From: a virus
Direction: 5' to 3' (one strand)
DNA: 30,109 bases
Virus record (IMG/VR): IMGVR_UViG_3300001589_000022
Location: 6,056 to 36,164 of that record
The notes under the pieces were generated by a model. The model saw nothing but the letters and a program-made list of their open reading frames with translations, was not told the DNA's origin and ran no database searches. The position numbers and the translations under genes are program-made. How positions within the stretch are numbered: position 1 is the first letter of the stretch; the number at the start of each line of letters is the position of its first letter. Positions 1-22,161 of the stretch are shown piece by piece.

Positions 1-3000
1 CCAGCATCAGTTATTATCGTACTGTGTGAACCTCCACATAGACCTGTAAACACATAATTTAAATTATTAGTAGTATCAACCTGTCCTGAACTACCTTGAT
101 AGGTATAAGGTGCGGTTCCACCTGATATTGTTAAAACAATTTGACCATCACACGTAAAACAATTCGCTTGTGAAGGTACTGAAGAAACTACGCCTAAACT
201 TTCTGCTAATCCAACATTAAAAGTATTAACTACACGACATCCATCATTATCAGTAACCGTAACTGAATAATTACCCTGATTTAATCCTGTTGCAGTAGAA
301 CCTGTTTGTCCATTAGACCAAGAATAACTAAACGGTGCGGTACCTCCACTAATATTGGTTACAGAAGCGGAACCAACGGGTGTACGAGTTGAACACGGCG
401 AATCATCATTAACTATTAAATTATAAGTAAATGCGCTACTACTAACAATTACACCATTATTTGTTTGTCCTGTTGCTCCTCCAAAATCAGTAACAATAGC
501 ATAATAAGTTTCAGGTGTTAATTGTGTAAATATAAAAGTTGGTAAAGGTACATTAACCGACTGAACCAAACCTAAACTACTATAAAGGTCTATTTGGTAA
601 GGAGAGGATAAAGAATTACTAGTTACAGTTAAAGAACCTGAATTAAAATCCCCACATGTTGTACCTGTAACACCTATAATTTCTGCAACAAAACATCCTT
701 CAACACTAATATTAATTGTTATATCTTGATTAACTCCACCAGAACTATCTTGAAGTAAAAATACATAATTTCCTTCTGAAACACCACCATATGAAAATGG
801 ACCTGTACCTGTTTGTTGAGGTAACAATAATCCTCCTGCTGCGGTAGTTGAAGTATTTGTAACTGTATATGGTTGAGTTCCACCTGACGGATAAATAATT
901 ATAATACCTCCTTTAGGGTTGGTACAAGTACCACTAACATCAAAACTATAACTTAGTGGTCCTTCATTACAATTAGCTACACATTGGTCCGCAGTTAATG
1001 CAATACCACTATAGTTTTTAGATGTGTCCACACAAATTGATAAACCTACTTGACTACCCTGTTGTAATTCTCCACAACAATCAACGTAAGTATAAAACCC
1101 ATCAGTTTGTCCTGAAAAACATCCAGTAGACTCACAATTTTCACAGGTACTAAATGGACCCACTTGATTTGTAACTGACGTTAGTGTTGTTGGTGGTGTA
1201 ATACTTACCGACTCAACAGTATAACAATCTCCAGATAAATTGTATACTTCATTTCTTACTCTACCTCCCGTTTGTACATAAATCACATTTAAAGGAGTTT
1301 CAATATTAACCAAGAACCCGTCTAAAGAATTAGTAACTGAAGTTTCAGTAAAATTATTAACCGTTGGGTCACTTAAAATACCAAAATGTTTAAGACCAGC
1401 ACCATTTTGATTGGTTGGAGATAAATTTTGATAGGCGGTTGTAGTGGTTAATCCTGAATACGGATTAATAGTATTTAATGCACTTAAATTTAAACTGTAC
1501 GGACCTACTGATGTTATATTCTGCCCGTAATTTGTTAAAAAGTTTGAAGTACTAATTGTATCACCTTCGGAAGCGGCTACTGAGTGTAACACAAAAGAAG
1601 GTGTAGGTCCAGTAGTTGACTCCGCCACAGGGTAAATTAAACCATTTAACGTTCCGTTGTTGTCTTTTATATCTTCCCAAACTTTTAAATAAGATTCATA
1701 ATCATATTGGTACCTATTTGTGTACTCTTTTAGATTATTATTAGTCCAATAAGTCCCATCTAACATAAATGGTTGAGTTACAAGGTGTTCAAATTTCTGT
1801 AAACTACCTGTATATAGTCCAACCGCACTATCAGATTCGTCTATTACAAAAATTACAATATAATTACTTTCATCACCTGAAAATGTACCTGGACCAGATG
1901 TAGATGAAAAATCTAAATCATTGTGGTCAAAAGGTACACCATTACTTCTTAAGTCGTCAACACCATATGACCCTGTCAATTGATAACCTCTATTTATTCT
2001 TCTAAAAATAGATGATGATTGGTTTTCATCGTTAAATTGTACTGATTTAGGTACACATTCTCCACTAACTTCAGAAGAACACCATTGACTTTGATATATA
2101 GAATTAGTTACAGGACTATTAAATTCATTGATTGGTGTGTTATCAGATAAGGTACCCCCTGTTAATGAACCTAAATACGGATATGATGCCCACCATAACC
2201 AATTTTCACCATTATCTCCATCCTCACCAATAATACCTTCGTATAAATTACCTGATGTTAAATCTCCATTAGTTACTTTAGTTTGATACCAAGAACGTAT
2301 AGATTCGGAAGCGGTACTAGCACTACTTTCATCTAAAGATGTCCCATCATAAAAAATAAAGACTTTTTGACTTTGGCTTGTAACCACACAACTATTTAAT
2401 TTATCCGCTAAACCGGCTGGTGATGGGGTGGGTGTAGGTGTAGAAGTTAGAGTGGGTGTTGGTGTTAGAGTAGTCGTAACTGTAGGCGTTGGTGTGGGTG
2501 TTACTCCTACTGTTGGAGCAGGTGTAGTTGTTACTGCTGGTGTAGTTGTTACTGCTGGTGTAGTTGTTACTGCGGGTGTTGGGGTTACTGCCGGTGTAGT
2601 TGTTACTGCCGGTGTTGGGGTTGGGGTTGGGGTTACTGTTGGAGTGGGAGTGGGAGTTACTGATGAACATACAGCATCTGTACAATCTTTAGTAGATGTT
2701 GAAACAAAACTAGCTATGGTATTATCCCAATAAACAATGTCTGTGACGGGGTCACTTCCGGGAGATGATAGTCGAGTATAACAACCATTAGGTTGAGTAC
2801 CTACATCGGTAAAGAGATAAGTATTATTAATAGATGGGGTTGCAAAGTCATTAAGGAAATCTACCGCATTATATCTATAAATTTTATTAACTGAACAAGC
2901 AGAGAAATAATAATATTCAGGTATTTGATTTACATTATTAATACAATCGGGACAACTATTATATATACCCGCAATAGTATTACCCACTAATGGGGTCGAA

Positions 3001-4064
3001 ATATTAACTTGGTCAACCGCGTTGGATTCTCCTCCATAACAATCTGATTTAAGTTTAACAAATTGTGGAGTTACTTTACCTCCTCCTTGTGGTAGACCCC
3101 ATGTTAAAGTATTAGCACTAAAAACTTGAACACCTTGACTTACTCCTGAACAATTGTCATCAGATGTAAATTTATAAATGTCATTAAATTGATTATTTGT
3201 TTGGCAATCAACACAATCACTATACCAAGTCGAGACAATATCAAATCTTCCTGTTAAATTTGGGTCAGTTAACTTATTACCACTATAAGGTGTTTGAACA
3301 TTATTAGGTCTTAAACATGGTCCACCCCATTTTGATGAATACGATTCTGACCTATCGTACATATCACCCGCATAAATTATTCCGTTAACACCGGTAAATA
3401 AATTACCATAACAATCGTCAGACATTGAAATCCATCCATCATATAACCCATCAAAATAAGTTCTAGCCGCTGTTGCAGAATAAGGTATAAGGTCATAATA
3501 TGTGTTGGTTCCGTTATGAATTAAATCGGATACTATTGTGGTTGCGTTATTAAAATCATATATTGATACTCCATTATTAGTAATATGAGTATAATCAGTT
3601 TGTCCTGTTAACATAATAGAATCATAACGATTCGTATCTGTACCAATTTTTTTTGATGTATCATTAAATGAACTTGCACTATAAAATGAATCAGCAAATC
3701 TAGGCGATTTAAATTCGCCGCTTGGTCCTTCAACTGTTATATAATTCTTAGCAAAAAATGTAGTATTTATATTAAATGTATTTCCAACATAGGAATTAAT
3801 ACTAGCTATAATTGAACTCCAAGGTTCTCCTGATATCATCTGAGTATCAAAAGATATAGGTGTAGAACCTAAATTAGTTAGTAACCAAGTTCTTGACCTA
3901 AAAGACCATGTGGAATTGGGGTAAGTAGATAAAAAATTAACAGTATCAGTTCGGTTTAACCCTGACGGTACGCTAGCGTCTGGCCACGCCATATAAATGG
4001 TAGACCCTGTAGTTGGTGACCCAACAGTGGCTCTTTGTTCTAATTTAAAATATAAAGTCGCCAT
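1..4064 (-). CDS. Giant SprB-repeat, Pro/Thr-linked adhesin-like structural protein (partial, C-terminus beyond window)
   Basis: The frame is open from the ATG at 4064 to the left edge, at least 1354 codons with no stop. The ATG overlaps the stop of the preceding 987-codon gene by one base (TAATG). From the N-terminus I see about 230 residues I do not recognise; three cysteine-rich modules (about residues 215-465) in which a Cys-Tyr pair is followed by CxxC or a similar cysteine pair; an 81-residue Pro/Thr/Val linker (469-549); a possible degenerate von Willebrand A-like alpha/beta region (about 565-830); another Cys-Tyr to CxxC module (about 945-977); a cysteine-rich stretch; then about four SprB-like units (about 1040-1354) with signatures such as ISGGTAPFSYSW and ISGGTAPYTYQG. 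SprB repeats are known from the mobile surface adhesin of gliding Flavobacterium. Position after the baseplate genes suggests a tail fibre or other host-contact protein; that role is inferred. The protein is real with high confidence; its function is less certain. Confidence 0.85.
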   Translation of the reverse strand, partial: MATLYFKLEQRATVGSPTTGSTIYMAWPDASVPSGLNRTDTVNFLSTYPNSTWSFRSRTWLLTNLGSTPISFDTQMISGEPWSSIIASINSYVGNTFNINTTFFAKNYITVEGPSGEFKSPRFADSFYSASSFNDTSKKIGTDTNRYDSIMLTGQTDYTHITNNGVSIYDFNNATTIVSDLIHNGTNTYYDLIPYSATAARTYFDGLYDGWISMSDDCYGNLFTGVNGIIYAGDMYDRSESYSSKWGGPCLRPNNVQTPYSGNKLTDPNLTGRFDIVSTWYSDCVDCQTNNQFNDIYKFTSDDNCSGVSQGVQVFSANTLTWGLPQGGGKVTPQFVKLKSDCYGGESNAVDQVNISTPLVGNTIAGIYNSCPDCINNVNQIPEYYYFSACSVNKIYRYNAVDFLNDFATPSINNTYLFTDVGTQPNGCYTRLSSPGSDPVTDIVYWDNTIASFVSTSTKDCTDAVCSSVTPTPTPTVTPTPTPTPAVTTTPAVTPTPAVTTTPAVTTTPAVTTTPAPTVGVTPTPTPTVTTTLTPTPTLTSTPTPTPSPAGLADKLNSCVVTSQSQKVFIFYDGTSLDESSASTASESIRSWYQTKVTNGDLTSGNLYEGIIGEDGDNGENWLWWASYPYLGSLTGGTLSDNTPINEFNSPVTNSIYQSQWCSSEVSGECVPKSVQFNDENQSSSIFRRINRGYQLTGSYGVDDLRSNGVPFDHNDLDFSSTSGPGTFSGDESNYIVIFVIDESDSAVGLYTGSLQKFEHLVTQPFMLDGTYWTNNNLKEYTNRYQYDYESYLKVWEDIKDNNGTLNGLIYPVAESTTGPTPSFVLHSVAASEGDTISTSNFLTNYGQNITSVGPYSLNLSALNTINPYSGLTTTTAYQNLSPTNQNGAGLKHFGILSDPTVNNFTETSVTNSLDGFLVNIETPLNVIYVQTGGRVRNEVYNLSGDCYTVESVSITPPTTLTSVTNQVGPFSTCENCESTGCFSGQTDGFYTYVDCCGELQQGSQVGLSICVDTSKNYSGIALTADQCVANCNEGPLSYSFDVSGTCTNPKGGIIIIYPSGGTQPYTVTNTSTTAAGGLLLPQQTGTGPFSYGGVSEGNYVFLLQDSSGGVNQDITINISVEGCFVAEIIGVTGTTCGDFNSGSLTVTSNSLSSPYQIDLYSSLGLVQSVNVPLPTFIFTQLTPETYYAIVTDFGGATGQTNNGVIVSSSAFTYNLIVNDDSPCSTRTPVGSASVTNISGGTAPFSYSWSNGQTGSTATGLNQGNYSVTVTDNDGCRVVNTFNVGLAESLGVVSSVPSQANCFTCDGQIVLTISGGTAPYTYQGSSGQVDTTNNLNYVFTGLCGGSHSTIITDA
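2418..2660 (-). repeat. Pro/Thr/Val low-complexity linker coding region
   Basis: This stretch encodes residues 469-549 of the SprB-repeat protein, made almost only of Pro, Thr, Val and Ala as TP and VTTTPA units. Such linkers are usually extended and flexible and often separate adhesin domains. The complementary + strand is G-rich, with GGGG runs at 2617-2620, 2623-2626 and 2629-2632 and GGG at 2646-2648 and 2652-2654. The linker splits the protein into a cysteine-rich N-terminal part and an SprB-repeat C-terminal part. Confidence 0.9.
2521..2610. repeat. Five tandem 18-bp repeats
   Basis: Five consecutive 18-base units starting GGTGTAG or GGTGTTG are read directly on the + strand. Units 1 and 2 are identical; unit 3 differs at one base; unit 5 differs from unit 1 only at its last base; unit 4 carries a G-rich variant. 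Each unit encodes six residues of the VTTTPA type on the minus strand, so a gain or loss of units keeps the frame. This is a minisatellite inside a gene. Confidence 0.9.
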
Positions 4065-7027
4065 TAATTACAATTAATTTCTATGTTTACTCCAACATTT
4101 ACAGTTAAAGTTTTATTCGTAAATTCTGGTTCACATCCAGTATTACTTACTGTTAAAATATTATTATTATCTATATTATAATTCAAACCGTTTTGATATA
4201 AATACTGTAACTTATCATTCAACGCATTAATCCATTGATTAAATGTTGGGTAGTCTTGATTACCGTACCCCGTATAAAATAATTCTTGTACTAATACTGT
4301 GGAGTCTAACCTTACATCGACATACCACTTACTTGTAAGTGAAGACTGAACACAGTCAGTAATTGTATATCCTGATTTTGCAACGCAACTATTAATACTA
4401 CTATTTAATAAAGTTGGAATTGAATTGATATTAACGTCACACGTTAGTGTTTCATCAATACAGTCAACCTCAAATAACTGTCCATTATAAGTACATGGTA
4501 TACATTCAACAGGTATTATTTCACATCCTCTTTGTCTTCTCCACACATGTTTTTGTCTTTGTAAAACATTGTTAACCATTTTTTGACCACCCATCCATAT
4601 TGTTGAAGCAGGAATCATTTGTTCTACAAACTTTGTCCAATAATCTCCAATACCTAAAGTAAAATCAATCATTTTTTGGTAAGTATACTGGTTAGAAGGT
4701 ATATTAACCGCTGATTCTGACTGTAGATATTTCCAATATATTGATTGAAGTGTCGGATAACTATTGGCCGCACCATCACTAATAACTTGTCGATTTCTAA
4801 CGTTTATTAATGTATTATAAAATGTTTGTGAAAATTCAAAAAACGTCTTCTCTTTAGGTAATGGGTTAATAACTGTCCAATCTTTACCCGAAGGTGAAGG
4901 ATATGGGGCGGTTAAACCAGAAGAAGGAAAAGGATAATTATATCTTCTTGACATTCTCCATATATCGTAAGTTATACCTTGAGCCATATTAAGATAAAGT
5001 TCAACGTTTTTGGCATTTAAAACTAAGTCCTCTTCAAACGCGGTATAATAGGCGTTATACGCCCCATCTCTATTTCGTCTAAGACCTATTTCCGAATCGT
5101 CCCAAGATTTATTATTATCTACAGTTCTAGTTAATCCAAAACCTAAGTTCATGTAAGGAAAATCTCTAAACCTATCAAAATATTTTTGACCATAAGTAAA
5201 CGTTTCTAATTTTGTTTGAACATCAGGATTAGCCCCTGTAAAAGTTGAATTACTCACATCTAACTTTTCATTAGCCCTATGGTCAGGAGTTTCAATATAC
5301 CACCCCGCACCCTTTTCAAAAAAGAAATCATTATTAACTATTGGTCTTTTAGGGTATCCCTTGTCATTCATAGGATAGTCACCCCTAACTTCATTAGTTT
5401 GAGTAACATATGTTGAGGTTGTAAATCCTGTATAGGTCACCCCTTGAATATTATATATTACTGTAGGGTCTAAAGCTGGAACATCATCGACTTTAGTTCC
5501 TCCTGATATTTTTAAGAATTCTCCTTCGAACCTTTTAACATTAATCGGTCCATCCGCAACATAAACAATTTCATTAAACTCAATTAAATCTTTAGGTGCC
5601 CCTACCATTCTCATAATCGCCTCAACTGAGTGACGAGTACCTTTAGACTTAAAAAGATAAGCCGAGTTAAGTATTATATTTCTATAAAATTGATAATTAA
5701 GTTGATTAGGTGTTGGGTCATTCTGAAAACCAGGGTATATCGATTTATTTTTAGAACCGAATATAGAGGTTAAGAAATCTTCATTTGTGATTGGTGATAT
5801 GTTAGTATTCCACCCTAAAGTTTGTGCTAAATTCTGTAATAGAGCTGAAGGTATATCATTTTGAGGGGTATAATGAACTGAATTCATAAAAGATAATGCG
5901 TCTATAAATTTTTTAGATTCATCAAAACTTCTACCATAAATTTGTAATACTTTTTCTACTTTGTTATCCTGAGTATCAAAATCTTTAAACGCCCCTGTTG
6001 TTAAAAATCTAACTATTAAGTCAGTTTTATATCTATCTAAAACTTCAGATATTTGACTAACCTCTAAAAGGTAGGTATCAAAATTTTCACTTGTTATATC
6101 TAAATTCCATACACCACTTTTTGGCCAAGTAACTTTCTTTTTACTTTTAATAAATTGACCCATGTCATTTTCTTCTACTAAATCAAATGAGGCCGTATAG
6201 GGCGGATTACTAAATCTATTAAGTAAAAAATCTTCAACTTCATCAAATGGTTCTTGAAACGCAAATTCAGTATGAAATGTATTTGGTCGTAATATTAAAG
6301 TACTATTAGTCGTACTAACACCGCTAAACGGATTACCCATAACACTTAAAGTTATTGTTCCTGCGGAAAATGTGGTAGAAGGTGTAAAGTTAACTAACTG
6401 ATATTCAGTCTCCATATTATCCACATATAATGCGTATTTGTTATAGGTGTTAGTAAGGTCTCTTAAAGGACTCGTAGGGAAAGGTCTTAGCTCTAAATTT
6501 CTAGCGGCATTAACTGAATAATCAATATCAAAAGGATTAGTAAATCTACTAACATCCATAGTTAGTGTTGTAACTTGCTCAATACTATTAAAAGATATAT
6601 TAGTAGCGGTATTAGCACTTGAGTAATCCTTTAATAATATTTTATCTACTTGAATAGATGCAGGAAAAAAATTGATTATTTTTGTTATTGAAGATGATAA
6701 TCTTTTTTGTAATGAACCATATAAAGCATAATTTGTTACTTGACTTATATCGTAATTAGGATATACCCTATAATTTTTTATTGCAATTGCCTTGGACTCT
6801 TCAATACTATCAACGTCAAGGTCAGCTAAGGATATTGGATTACTAAAGACTCCAGTCTCAAATGTTCTATTAACTTTTTCAACAATAGAAGTACTAAACT
6901 CGAAATTACCCTGAGTCAATCCACCACCATCAACCACTTGTAACCCAACTAAATTGGGGGAAAAGGATTCATCTGCACTTGGAGGTGCGGGTGGATAAAA
7001 GTATTTTTTATTGTTATTATTTGCCAT
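4064..7027 (-). CDS. Large baseplate/tail structural protein with tail-protein-I-like motif
   Basis: 987 residues, starting MANNNNKKYF, two bases after the stop of the 302-codon gene. The middle carries KGTRHSVEAIMRMVGAP (about residues 458-474), which resembles the KGT...(A/V)...LLG signature of P2 gpI-type baseplate proteins; before it lies a helical stretch (about 340-400) containing DRYKTDLIVRFL and QIYGRSFDE. The last 150 residues contain a cysteine cluster starting CEIIPVECIPC, followed by further paired cysteines, hinting at a metal-bound or disulphide-linked domain at the tip. No signal peptide or membrane segment is visible. It lies between wedge proteins and the adhesin-like gene, so it may connect baseplate to fibre. 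The baseplate assignment is inferred from neighbours and one motif; the exact T4 counterpart is not clear to me. Confidence 0.7.
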   Translation of the reverse strand: MANNNNKKYFYPPAPPSADESFSPNLVGLQVVDGGGLTQGNFEFSTSIVEKVNRTFETGVFSNPISLADLDVDSIEESKAIAIKNYRVYPNYDISQVTNYALYGSLQKRLSSSITKIINFFPASIQVDKILLKDYSSANTATNISFNSIEQVTTLTMDVSRFTNPFDIDYSVNAARNLELRPFPTSPLRDLTNTYNKYALYVDNMETEYQLVNFTPSTTFSAGTITLSVMGNPFSGVSTTNSTLILRPNTFHTEFAFQEPFDEVEDFLLNRFSNPPYTASFDLVEENDMGQFIKSKKKVTWPKSGVWNLDITSENFDTYLLEVSQISEVLDRYKTDLIVRFLTTGAFKDFDTQDNKVEKVLQIYGRSFDESKKFIDALSFMNSVHYTPQNDIPSALLQNLAQTLGWNTNISPITNEDFLTSIFGSKNKSIYPGFQNDPTPNQLNYQFYRNIILNSAYLFKSKGTRHSVEAIMRMVGAPKDLIEFNEIVYVADGPINVKRFEGEFLKISGGTKVDDVPALDPTVIYNIQGVTYTGFTTSTYVTQTNEVRGDYPMNDKGYPKRPIVNNDFFFEKGAGWYIETPDHRANEKLDVSNSTFTGANPDVQTKLETFTYGQKYFDRFRDFPYMNLGFGLTRTVDNNKSWDDSEIGLRRNRDGAYNAYYTAFEEDLVLNAKNVELYLNMAQGITYDIWRMSRRYNYPFPSSGLTAPYPSPSGKDWTVINPLPKEKTFFEFSQTFYNTLINVRNRQVISDGAANSYPTLQSIYWKYLQSESAVNIPSNQYTYQKMIDFTLGIGDYWTKFVEQMIPASTIWMGGQKMVNNVLQRQKHVWRRQRGCEIIPVECIPCTYNGQLFEVDCIDETLTCDVNINSIPTLLNSSINSCVAKSGYTITDCVQSSLTSKWYVDVRLDSTVLVQELFYTGYGNQDYPTFNQWINALNDKLQYLYQNGLNYNIDNNNILTVSNTGCEPEFTNKTLTVNVGVNIEINCN

Positions 7028-19138: not shown

Positions 19139-20845
19139 TTAACCCTCACACGCAACACATTGTAAGTCATTTAAATTCAACTTTTTTCTAGCAAAAGCCT
19201 GTGCCGAGTTCATAGAATGTTGATAATATAGTGTCTTAACCCCTAACTTCCATGAGTCAATAAGTAATTTATTAACGTCTTTAGTTGGCATCTCAGGTGA
19301 AACCATTAAATTTAAAGATTGCGACTGGTCAATAAAGTCTTGTCTAATTGCTGCCTGATTAACAATTGACGATTGATTAATTTCTGCAAATGTTCTAAAC
19401 ACATCTTTTTGGTCGTCATTTAGAAAATCTAAATGTTGTACTGAACCGTCAGCCTTTTTTATACTATCCCAAGTTTCCTTATTATTTTTACCGATTGAGT
19501 CTAACAAATCTTTTAATATAGGATTTTTAATAGTAACCTTCATTTTAGCTACATCCTTAACATAACAGTTAGACCAAATAGGTTCAATGGATTGTGACAC
19601 TTGACCAAGAATAAACGCCGATGAAGTAGTCGGAGCAACAGCATTAAGTGTTACGTTTCGTCTACCATAACCTTTTAGATATTCAGGTTCACCAAAAATT
19701 TCAGCTAACTCTTCTGATGCTTTATATGATTTATCTTTAATTGTTCTAAATACCTCAACATTAAGTTTAGCAGTTTCTTTAGTATCGAAAGGTAATCCTT
19801 TTGATTGTAGAAGTGAGTGCCAACCTAAAACACCTAAACCGAGTGCTCTTTGTCTTTTAGCGAAGTTATAAGCCTTTTCCATATATAAAAACGCCATTTT
19901 ACCTTCTCTAGTACCGTTGTCTCTTAATTTTTCTAATTTATTACAATACTCTGTAACAACCGCATCTAAGAAATAAACCATAGTTTCAACAGCGTCAGTA
20001 TCTTTCCATTCATCGTAGTGTAATACATTCATTGAAGATAGTACACAAACAAATGATTCGTCTTCAGAATTATGTAGAGCTATCTCAGAGCAAAGATTAG
20101 AGTTATATATTTTAGCTCCTTTATCTTGGTAGACTTTAGGTGCGTTATTGTTCATTGTATCATGAAACATAATATAAGGATAACCAATTTCACCTCTTCT
20201 TTGAATTACTTTAGCCCATATCTTTCTTTTTTCATCGTCCCCCGCAATCATTTCTTCCATAAATTTATCAGTAACTGTTACCGCGTGTGTTAAATCTTGT
20301 ATTGAAGCTCCTTCCGTACCAATCTCTAAGAATTCCATAATATCAGGGTGCTCAATAGGTAGGTAAGGTGAGAAACGACCTCTTCGTGTCGCCCCTTGTG
20401 AAATGTTATCAACCACACTTTGAAATAGATTCATAAAATGGACTGCACCTGGTGCATGTCCATTATCCGTTATCTTAGCTCCACGACCTCTAATGTTACC
20501 GAAATACCCTGAAGTACCCCCACCCATTTTACTCATTTCACCAACTTCAGCCTGTGTAAATAATATTGATTCTATACTATCACTAACGTTTGAACCAAAA
20601 CAACTCACAGGAAGACCTCTAACTTTACCGAAATTTGCCCATACTGGTGATGATAATGAATACCATCCTTTACTCATGTAATCATAAAATTTATCCGCAA
20701 ACCCTTCTTTATTTAAAAGTTTTTCTGCATGTTCTGCAATTATTTTTATTCTATCTAAAGGTTCTTCACCTTCACTTAAATAACCTCTACGAAGAAACGT
20801 TATTGATTCTTCATTAATCCAATTAAAAGGTTCTCTCTTTTTCAT
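19139..20845 (-). CDS. nrdA: Ribonucleotide reductase large subunit (class I, alpha), no ATP-cone
   Basis: Converts ribonucleotides to deoxyribonucleotides with the NrdB partner encoded just upstream. Key residues are visible: C82 in VSCFGSN and C267 in FVCVLSSMN form the active-site redox pair; N250, C252 and E254 in NSNLCSEI are the catalytic set; Y540-Y541 in KTLYYQHS are the radical-transfer pair; C563 and C566 (CVAC) form the C-terminal shuttle pair. PTTSSAFILGQVSQSIEP is the substrate-binding loop. At 568 residues it is shorter than E. coli NrdA (761), mainly because the N-terminal ATP-cone is missing: the protein begins almost at the helical domain. Regulation of overall activity is instead expected through the cone fused to NrdB. 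Gene order is nrdB then nrdA, 35 bases apart, followed by a terminator. Confidence 0.95.
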   Translation of the reverse strand: MKKREPFNWINEESITFLRRGYLSEGEEPLDRIKIIAEHAEKLLNKEGFADKFYDYMSKGWYSLSSPVWANFGKVRGLPVSCFGSNVSDSIESILFTQAEVGEMSKMGGGTSGYFGNIRGRGAKITDNGHAPGAVHFMNLFQSVVDNISQGATRRGRFSPYLPIEHPDIMEFLEIGTEGASIQDLTHAVTVTDKFMEEMIAGDDEKRKIWAKVIQRRGEIGYPYIMFHDTMNNNAPKVYQDKGAKIYNSNLCSEIALHNSEDESFVCVLSSMNVLHYDEWKDTDAVETMVYFLDAVVTEYCNKLEKLRDNGTREGKMAFLYMEKAYNFAKRQRALGLGVLGWHSLLQSKGLPFDTKETAKLNVEVFRTIKDKSYKASEELAEIFGEPEYLKGYGRRNVTLNAVAPTTSSAFILGQVSQSIEPIWSNCYVKDVAKMKVTIKNPILKDLLDSIGKNNKETWDSIKKADGSVQHLDFLNDDQKDVFRTFAEINQSSIVNQAAIRQDFIDQSQSLNLMVSPEMPTKDVNKLLIDSWKLGVKTLYYQHSMNSAQAFARKKLNLNDLQCVACEG

Positions 20846-20880: not shown

Positions 20881-22161
20881 TTAAAATAAATCGTTTGATG
20901 TGATTGATTTTTGTTTCTTACTGTAGTTGATACTTCTTTTATTAAAAAAATCAGTATGTTTAGTAGTTAAAATCTCATCATCAAACCATTCAGTAGTCTC
21001 TAATAATGTGTCATTAATCTCAAATATACTATCCACATCTATTGAATTCAAAGATACATTAAATCTATGTTTAATGAACTCCATTGTTTGTTTTTTAGTT
21101 AAGAAATCTAAGTCACCCTTTTCAAAAATCCAATTAACTACTTCTGTTTCTGCTTCATAAGCTTCTTTAGTTGCAATAATTAAATCCTCAACTAATTGTG
21201 GTGTCCACCACTCTGGATTTTCTTTTTTAATTAAATTAACTAACTCGAACCCAAATTCAGCGTGAATATTTTCTTCTTTAGATGTCGCTTCAACAGCATT
21301 ACTAATACCTTTTAATTTGTTTTTATGTTTATTAAATGACATAATAACTAAGAATTGTGAAAATAGTGAAACATTTTCAACAAACATTGAAAACAACACA
21401 ATAGATTCAAAATATTCTTTGTCATCTACAGACTTAGAATTAGAAATAGCTTTTTCTAAATACTTAATTCTTCTTCTTACTTGAGGTACTTCTAATAAAT
21501 TTTCAAACTCATTATTAAGTCCTAACAATTGAATTAGATGCGAATATGCATCAGCATGTCTTACCTCTGACTCAGCGAATGTAGCACCTACATTACCAAT
21601 TTCAGGTTTTGGCATTCTTTTATAAATGTCACCCCAAAATGATTTAACCGCTACTTCAATTTGTGAAATAGCTAACATAGCTCTTTCAACTGCAGATTTT
21701 TCTTTATCGTTTAAATGTACTTTATAATCTTGAATATCTGAGGTATAATTAAATTCAGTATGTACCCAATATGAATGTCTAATTGCATCCACATATTCAT
21801 TTAAGTTAGGATATTCATAAGGTTTAAGATTAATTCTTTTAGAAAAAATATTAGGTTGGTTCTTAGAACGATAAATAATATATTCTTTAGCGACATAATT
21901 TAAACCGTTATCCATTAACTTGTTTTCAACCATATCATGAATTTCATCAACATTAGGTACCCTTTCTTTATTACCTCTGAAAAGACCTTTTGTTGTGAGT
22001 CTGGCAATTTTTTCTGCCATATTTTCATCTACTTTATCGATACTTTTCATCGCATTTAAAATAGCTATTTCAATCTTTTCAGATTTAAAAACTACTTTAT
22101 CTCCACTTCTTTTTATTACATAACGAATGTCTTTAGTGACACTATCAATTAGATTGTCCAT
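20881..22161 (-). CDS. nrdB: Ribonucleotide reductase small subunit with N-terminal ATP-cone
   Basis: 426 residues. Residues about 12-105 form an ATP-cone (YVIKRSGDKVVF, then an A-x-x-x-A-M helix, ending KEYIIYRSKN), a domain normally at the N-terminus of NrdA. Residues about 110-400 are the ferritin-like metal-binding core: ligands E169, E199 and H202 (ESEVRHADAY), E262, E297 and H300 (KEENIHAEF). Tyr206 lies where E. coli NrdB has Tyr122. The first ligand is Glu rather than Asp. The tail ending SNDLF is probably the NrdA-binding peptide. NrdB proteins with an ATP-cone were described from Leeuwenhoekiella blandensis (Flavobacteriia), where dATP drives the small subunit into inactive oligomers. 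The same control here is inferred. The ATP-cone is seen; the cofactor class is not proven. Confidence 0.95.
   Translation of the reverse strand: MDNLIDSVTKDIRYVIKRSGDKVVFKSEKIEIAILNAMKSIDKVDENMAEKIARLTTKGLFRGNKERVPNVDEIHDMVENKLMDNGLNYVAKEYIIYRSKNQPNIFSKRINLKPYEYPNLNEYVDAIRHSYWVHTEFNYTSDIQDYKVHLNDKEKSAVERAMLAISQIEVAVKSFWGDIYKRMPKPEIGNVGATFAESEVRHADAYSHLIQLLGLNNEFENLLEVPQVRRRIKYLEKAISNSKSVDDKEYFESIVLFSMFVENVSLFSQFLVIMSFNKHKNKLKGISNAVEATSKEENIHAEFGFELVNLIKKENPEWWTPQLVEDLIIATKEAYEAETEVVNWIFEKGDLDFLTKKQTMEFIKHRFNVSLNSIDVDSIFEINDTLLETTEWFDDEILTTKHTDFFNKRSINYSKKQKSITSNDLF

Follow-up and report, generated by a model that had tools for sequence, protein, structure and literature searches.

A conserved viral form of ATP-cone on the NrdB subunit of a phage class Id ribonucleotide reductase

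We analyzed a window of 30,109 nucleotides, corresponding to positions 6,056 to 36,164 of IMG/VR record IMGVR_UViG_3300001589_000022, in which the two genes of a ribonucleotide reductase (RNR) lie side by side on the minus strand. The nrdB gene (20881..22161) is an uninterrupted frame of 426 codons' worth of residues, and the 426-aa product was assigned as the NrdBi/class Id radical-generating subunit with an N-terminal ATP-cone on the basis of Pfam, the match to PDB 5OLK, and a structure model searched with Foldseek. Its metal-binding core (residues 109-382; 21016..21837, minus strand) was recognized by Pfam as Ribonuc_red_sm (E 1.6e-57). The closest solved structure by sequence was NrdB of Leeuwenhoekiella blandensis (5OLK; residues 9-426, E 8.7e-156). 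The AlphaFold2 model (mean pLDDT 88, 65-sequence alignment) had the same cone-containing structure as its top PDB match (Foldseek, E 7.5e-34), so that sequence and fold both bear out an earlier reading, made in a first-pass annotation, that the phage carries the L. blandensis kind of RNR. All six metal ligands (Glu169, Glu199, His202, Glu262, Glu296, and His300) are kept, and the three class Id signatures, i.e., Asp to Glu at the first ligand, Gly to Lys, and Tyr to Trp (PMC6754362), were found by alignment as Glu169, Lys173, and Trp176. As a check on numbering, the published L. blandensis residues Glu170, Lys174, Trp177, Tyr207, and Glu263 landed on those residues in the alignment. With every signature residue present, the protein is, as judged from its sequence, of the NrdBi/class Id (dimanganese) subclass, and a Mn cofactor is predicted. 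The phage that carries it is probably marine.

The nrdA gene (19139..20845, minus strand), directly downstream of nrdB, encodes the 568-aa NrdAi catalytic subunit, identified by Pfam, NCBIfam, and a tree of NrdA partners. As the first-pass annotation had stated, it lacks an ATP-cone; Pfam found only the all-alpha and barrel domains. Distant outgroup phages excepted, none of the partner NrdA proteins in the set has enough sequence ahead of the match to accommodate a cone. Class Id alpha subunits are minimal, with a median length of 565 aa (PMC9531940), and the phage protein fits this short, cone-free form. Beta-borne cones almost always occur in a beta-then-alpha gene order (PMC9669993), which is also the order in the window.

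We examined the ATP-cone of NrdB residue by residue. The cone scored 65.3 bits on PF03477 (cut-off 25.8; E 7.6e-18; profile positions 2-86 of 88) and covers residues 14-101 (21859..22122, minus strand), within a few residues of the full cone placed at 12-105 by the first-pass annotation. That annotation had also raised the question of whether the nucleotide-binding residues are intact, and the answer differs between the two nucleotide sites. Site 1 is intact (Lys17, Arg18, and Lys29, identical to L. blandensis). At the second site, published structures place Gln72, Arg98, and Arg102 (L. blandensis numbering) at the bound dATP, and Arg102 is the sole contact of the L. blandensis protein with the gamma-phosphates. 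The corresponding phage residues are His75, Tyr97, which retains the base-stacking Tyr, and Asn101 in place of Arg98, and there is no Arg102; the L. blandensis-type combination of a helix-3 Gln and a helix-4 Tyr-Arg-Arg set is not found. In a number-checked alignment read together with the literature, the His75 codon (21937..21939, minus strand) aligned with L. blandensis Gln72 and with His59 of Escherichia coli NrdA, the helix-3 His sensor, making His75 the proposed ATP/dATP sensor. The turn that bears Arg102 is deleted at the end of helix 4, where alignment and model place residues 101-104, Asn-Gln-Pro-Asn (21850..21861, minus strand); in the model, helix 4 stops at residue 100, and the residue adjoining the deletion, Gln102, is not basic. 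The cone-cone interface residues of the β4 tetramer are the same as in L. blandensis (Asp76, Met83, Lys92, Ile95, Ile96, and Arg98). In the alignment, the phage cone differs from that of E. coli at the gate positions Trp28 and Phe87, and another gate is possible.

Next, the cone was compared across 214 distinct NrdB sequences, among which the cone-bearing ones split into two types. Of the 56 type 1 sequences, 40 are cellular (L. blandensis among them) and 16 viral; in L. blandensis numbering, 13 residues run from Arg95 to Phe107, and Glu69, Gln72, and Arg102 are invariant in 56/56. Type 2 comprises 91 sequences, every one of them viral, including those of the window and of Salicola phage SCTP-2. 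In these, the same stretch has 9 residues, the Arg102 turn is deleted, Asp69 and His72 are invariant in 91/91, the Arg98 position is mostly Asn or His, and the site-1 residues and sensor position are invariant throughout. Arg or Lys stands beside the deletion in 50/92 rows, a count that includes the row of Methylophilales phage Melnitz, which was otherwise left out because its N-terminus is different, glutaredoxin-like, and not a cone. At 85% identity, the 91 sequences fall into about ten clusters; they probably share one origin and represent a single conserved change rather than 91 independent ones. A scan of 84,980 species genomes used six peptides from the window, two of which come from the cone and one of these two covers the His. 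Among the 65 loci recovered, the 39 distinct sequences with a cone were all type 1, and no cellular gene with the type 2 cone was found. The median dN/dS in type 2 pairs was 0.05 for the cone and 0.02 for the core (160 pairs with measurable divergence, which are not independent), and each of ten longer records of the window group has exactly one cone. These sequence comparisons indicate that the cone is under purifying selection within the viral group; a degenerate cone or decaying remnant was ruled out by the dN/dS of 0.05 and the invariant site-1 residues.

A cone on NrdB in viruses has been in print since 2018, and the first-pass annotation's view of it as a rarity there does not hold. In a phage collection, cone-NrdB was found in numerous records of Staphylococcus phages (Twortvirinae: Silviavirus and Baoshanvirus), Sporosarcina phage Lietuvens, and Salicola phage SCTP-2. 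None of these was more than 53% identical to the window NrdB, and the collection held no isolate of the window's own group. In IMG/VR, 450 stretches encode relatives, and the best 80 of the 450 span protein and cone with 84-100% identity; a scan with SCTP-2 NrdB as query gave one weak relative. The apparent NrdB cone of Aeromonas phage 60AhydR15PP was rejected because the match runs into a separate upstream ORF, and a glutaredoxin partner in the larger relatives was dismissed since it occurs in just 1/6 records. Both bacteria and other viruses are known to have the cone-on-NrdB layout; the detail that seems new is a redesign of the second nucleotide site that is virus-specific and conserved.

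The known systems resemble the phage enzyme to different degrees. L. blandensis NrdAi/NrdBi is alike in domain order, class Id metal site, cone-free NrdA, and cone-cone interface, but in the phage Gln72 is replaced by His, Glu69 by Asp, and Arg98 by Asn, and the four-residue Arg102 turn is absent. The Twortvirinae and Lietuvens also have a phage cone-NrdB with a cone-free NrdA downstream; however, their NrdB proteins have a cone of the cellular Gln/Arg102 type and group with Bacillota. SCTP-2 NrdB shares the viral cone type with its His and deleted turn, whereas it is only ~49% identical to the window NrdB, comes from a phage with a gammaproteobacterial host, and is accompanied by an NrdA that carries an intein. 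In Facklamia ignava NrdB (Grx-cone-NrdBi), the cone is likewise on NrdBi and the tetramer is dATP-induced, but there is an additional glutaredoxin domain, and two bound dATP molecules have been measured. With the E. coli NrdA cone, which binds one dATP, the phage shares the helix-3 His position, the hairpin Lys-Arg, and the helix-1 Lys; by contrast, the E. coli cone is on the catalytic subunit, the inhibited form is α4β4, and the Trp28 and Phe87 residues of its gate are not kept in the phage cone.

Characterized cones give a basis for a proposed mechanism. In E. coli NrdA, dATP is hydrogen-bonded by His59 of helix 3, and only ATP opens the second site, so that one dATP is bound (PMC11447812). 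StNrdD binds two dATP molecules, has Gln79 at the position equivalent to His59, and grips the phosphates of the second dATP with Tyr101, Arg105, and Arg109 of helix 4 (PMC12662201); the spacing of these three is that of Tyr94, Arg98, and Arg102 in L. blandensis. Pseudomonas aeruginosa NrdA and Prevotella copri NrdD also bind two dATP molecules, and our alignment places Gln at their sensor position. Both dATP inhibition and the β4 tetramer have been measured for L. blandensis NrdB and for F. ignava NrdB. We propose that the phage pair would function as a class Id (NrdAi/NrdBi) RNR with activity control on NrdB. With ATP in the cone, NrdB would stay dimeric and able to build active α2β2; when dATP rises, dATP would occupy the cone, and the cones would pair via helices 3 and 4, trapping NrdB in nonproductive tetramers. 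His75 would serve as the ATP/dATP sensor, the role that His59 has in the E. coli enzyme. The arginines that grip the phosphates of the second dATP are absent, so the viral cone would most likely take one dATP, at site 1, compared with two in L. blandensis. The second dATP thus appears to be lost or weakened in the phage cone, with site 1 and the tetramer interface kept, and such a combination of E. coli-type sensing with L. blandensis-type output was not found described in the literature searched.

We regard the mechanism as a whole as the favored account, held with some reservation, given that one might expect a lytic phage to drop such a brake. For one dATP per viral cone, taken as a step on its own, the balance falls slightly short of even: Arg or Lys lies beside the deletion in about half of the type 2 cones, and the Trp28/Phe87 gate is not conserved. 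Nor does the His alone define a one-dATP cone, since phiTE NrdD has His at the sensor place together with both helix-4 arginines. That a virus-only NrdB lineage converted a beta-borne cone binding two dATP into a His-sensed form binding one, while keeping beta-tetramer inhibition, is a tentative extension, somewhat less probable again. The cone might instead behave exactly like that of L. blandensis, with two dATP each and a β4 tetramer. In that case, the His and the shortening of helix 4 would be neutral, and Lys100, or an Arg one position on in relatives, would replace Arg98/Arg102. The retained tetramer-interface residues and base-stacking Tyr97, the match of the model fold to 5OLK, and the basic residue in 50/92 type 2 rows are compatible with this, but we consider it unlikely because Gln72 and Arg102, invariant in 56/56 cellular-type cones, are replaced or deleted in 91/91 type 2 cones, and in the window the residue beside the deletion, Gln102, is not basic. 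It is more improbable still that the cone is folded and conserved but has lost the dATP brake, its role being assembly or ATP activation only. The second-site residues are indeed gone, and RNRs that dATP cannot switch off have been argued to be beneficial to lytic phages (PMC6370689); however, the site-1 residues and sensor position are invariant in 91 sequences, the dN/dS is 0.05, and the tetramer-interface residues are kept. The allosteric off-switch of the first-pass annotation survives in part: with site 1 kept and purifying selection on the domain, the cone is probably a working dATP brake, but its changed second-nucleotide site sets it apart from the L. blandensis switch. We infer the effect of this changed site, as well as dATP inhibition, oligomeric state, and nucleotide number for the phage enzyme. 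These differences suggest that the group may sense dATP unlike the studied bacterial enzyme.

Furthermore, the origin of the genes was examined in separate phylogenies. The window group forms its own viral clade in the NrdB core tree (100/100) and in the NrdA tree (100), apart from Flavobacteriia as drawn, and the cone tree, with 93 columns only, gave weak forks and placed some viral cones near NrdD. Acquisition of nrdBA from a flavobacterial host with an L. blandensis-type gene, which would make NrdB a host marker, could be argued from the fact that most cone-NrdBi in RefSeq in 2018 came from Flavobacteriales, and an AU test on the NrdB core did not reject the window group with Flavobacteriia (p 0.255). 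Against this stand the separate viral clade, the lack of any cellular gene with a type 2 cone in the scan of 84,980 species genomes, and the best core tree, which unites the window group with the SCTP-2 group at a lnL 9.3 higher; we regard such an acquisition as very improbable. The core tree with type 2 held together beat the free search (lnL +9.3, p 0.667), and it was also better with all cone-bearing forms as a single clade (lnL +5.2). Separate capture of the cone from NrdD or another protein was set aside, as the core favors one clade and a cone tree with all NrdB cones constrained together was not rejected (p 0.101). On these trees, one fusion origin of cone-NrdB is the simplest interpretation, though not proven.

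The first-pass annotation had taken the cone as a strong link to a Bacteroidetes host, and this link is not upheld. Cone-NrdBi is spread over Bacteroidota, Bacillota, Pseudomonadota, Spirochaetota, and many Patescibacteria metagenome-assembled genomes (MAGs), as well as phages of Gram-positive and gammaproteobacterial hosts, so that NrdB tells little about the host. In the peptide scan, Patescibacteria MAG contigs with cone-NrdBi and NrdAi outnumbered Flavobacteriia loci (L082, L088-L109, L114, L121, L140, and others), and Flavobacteriia may not be the main home of cone-NrdBi. Other features of the window bear on the host. All of its genes are on the minus strand, and the GC content is 32%. 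A Shine-Dalgarno-like 4-mer precedes 1/19 genes, no excess over the ~10% expected by chance, unlike the cone-NrdB phages of Staphylococcus and Salicola, in which Shine-Dalgarno sites are present. A large protein at 3-4064 (minus strand), whose frame leaves the window, has SprB repeats (PF13573, E 1.7e-10) and a Thr-Pro-rich stretch; it may be a tail fibre or an adhesin-like protein belonging to a Bacteroidota phage. Bacteroidota typically have SprB repeats and make weak use of Shine-Dalgarno sites. The baseplate and helicase have distant relatives (~26%) in Flavobacterium phages immuto. The SprB repeats, near-absent Shine-Dalgarno sites, and baseplate relatives make a Bacteroidota host plausible.

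Lytic phages are thought to benefit from loss of dATP feedback on RNR (PMC6370689). Contrary to that expected benefit, a common uncultured phage group retains a full feedback domain, in its own form and under purifying selection. If the altered site shifts dATP number or inhibition threshold, enzymes with no cone, a two-dATP cone, and the viral cone would form a natural series on the same class Id core, bearing both on dATP/ATP discrimination by the cone and on dNTP pool control by phages.

Several observations were made on other phages. The NrdB C-terminus of Staphylococcus Twortvirinae extends ~27-30 residues beyond the usual NrdA-docking end (L147, L149, L150, L152, and L158). In Staphylococcus phage Golestan101-M (L150, 4364-4525), the cone-NrdB is intact and adjoins an NrdA CDS annotated as only 53 aa. 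The stretch examined yielded no NrdA frame, and the gene may be split or lost. LAGLIDADG inteins occupy about the same NrdA site in SCTP-2 (L151, 5300-7966), Paenibacillus pini (L107, 5255-7936), and a Staphylococcus phage (L158, 4357-6561). In addition, Proteus phage Vb_PmiP-P59 encodes an ATP-cone protein of 111 aa that stands by itself, unattached to an RNR (L341, 1501-1836; PF03477, E 3e-20), annotated as anaerobic RNR and adjoining a Dps-like gene. Such a protein is also present in Privateer and Cronobacter phage 009 and could target the host RNR or NrdR.
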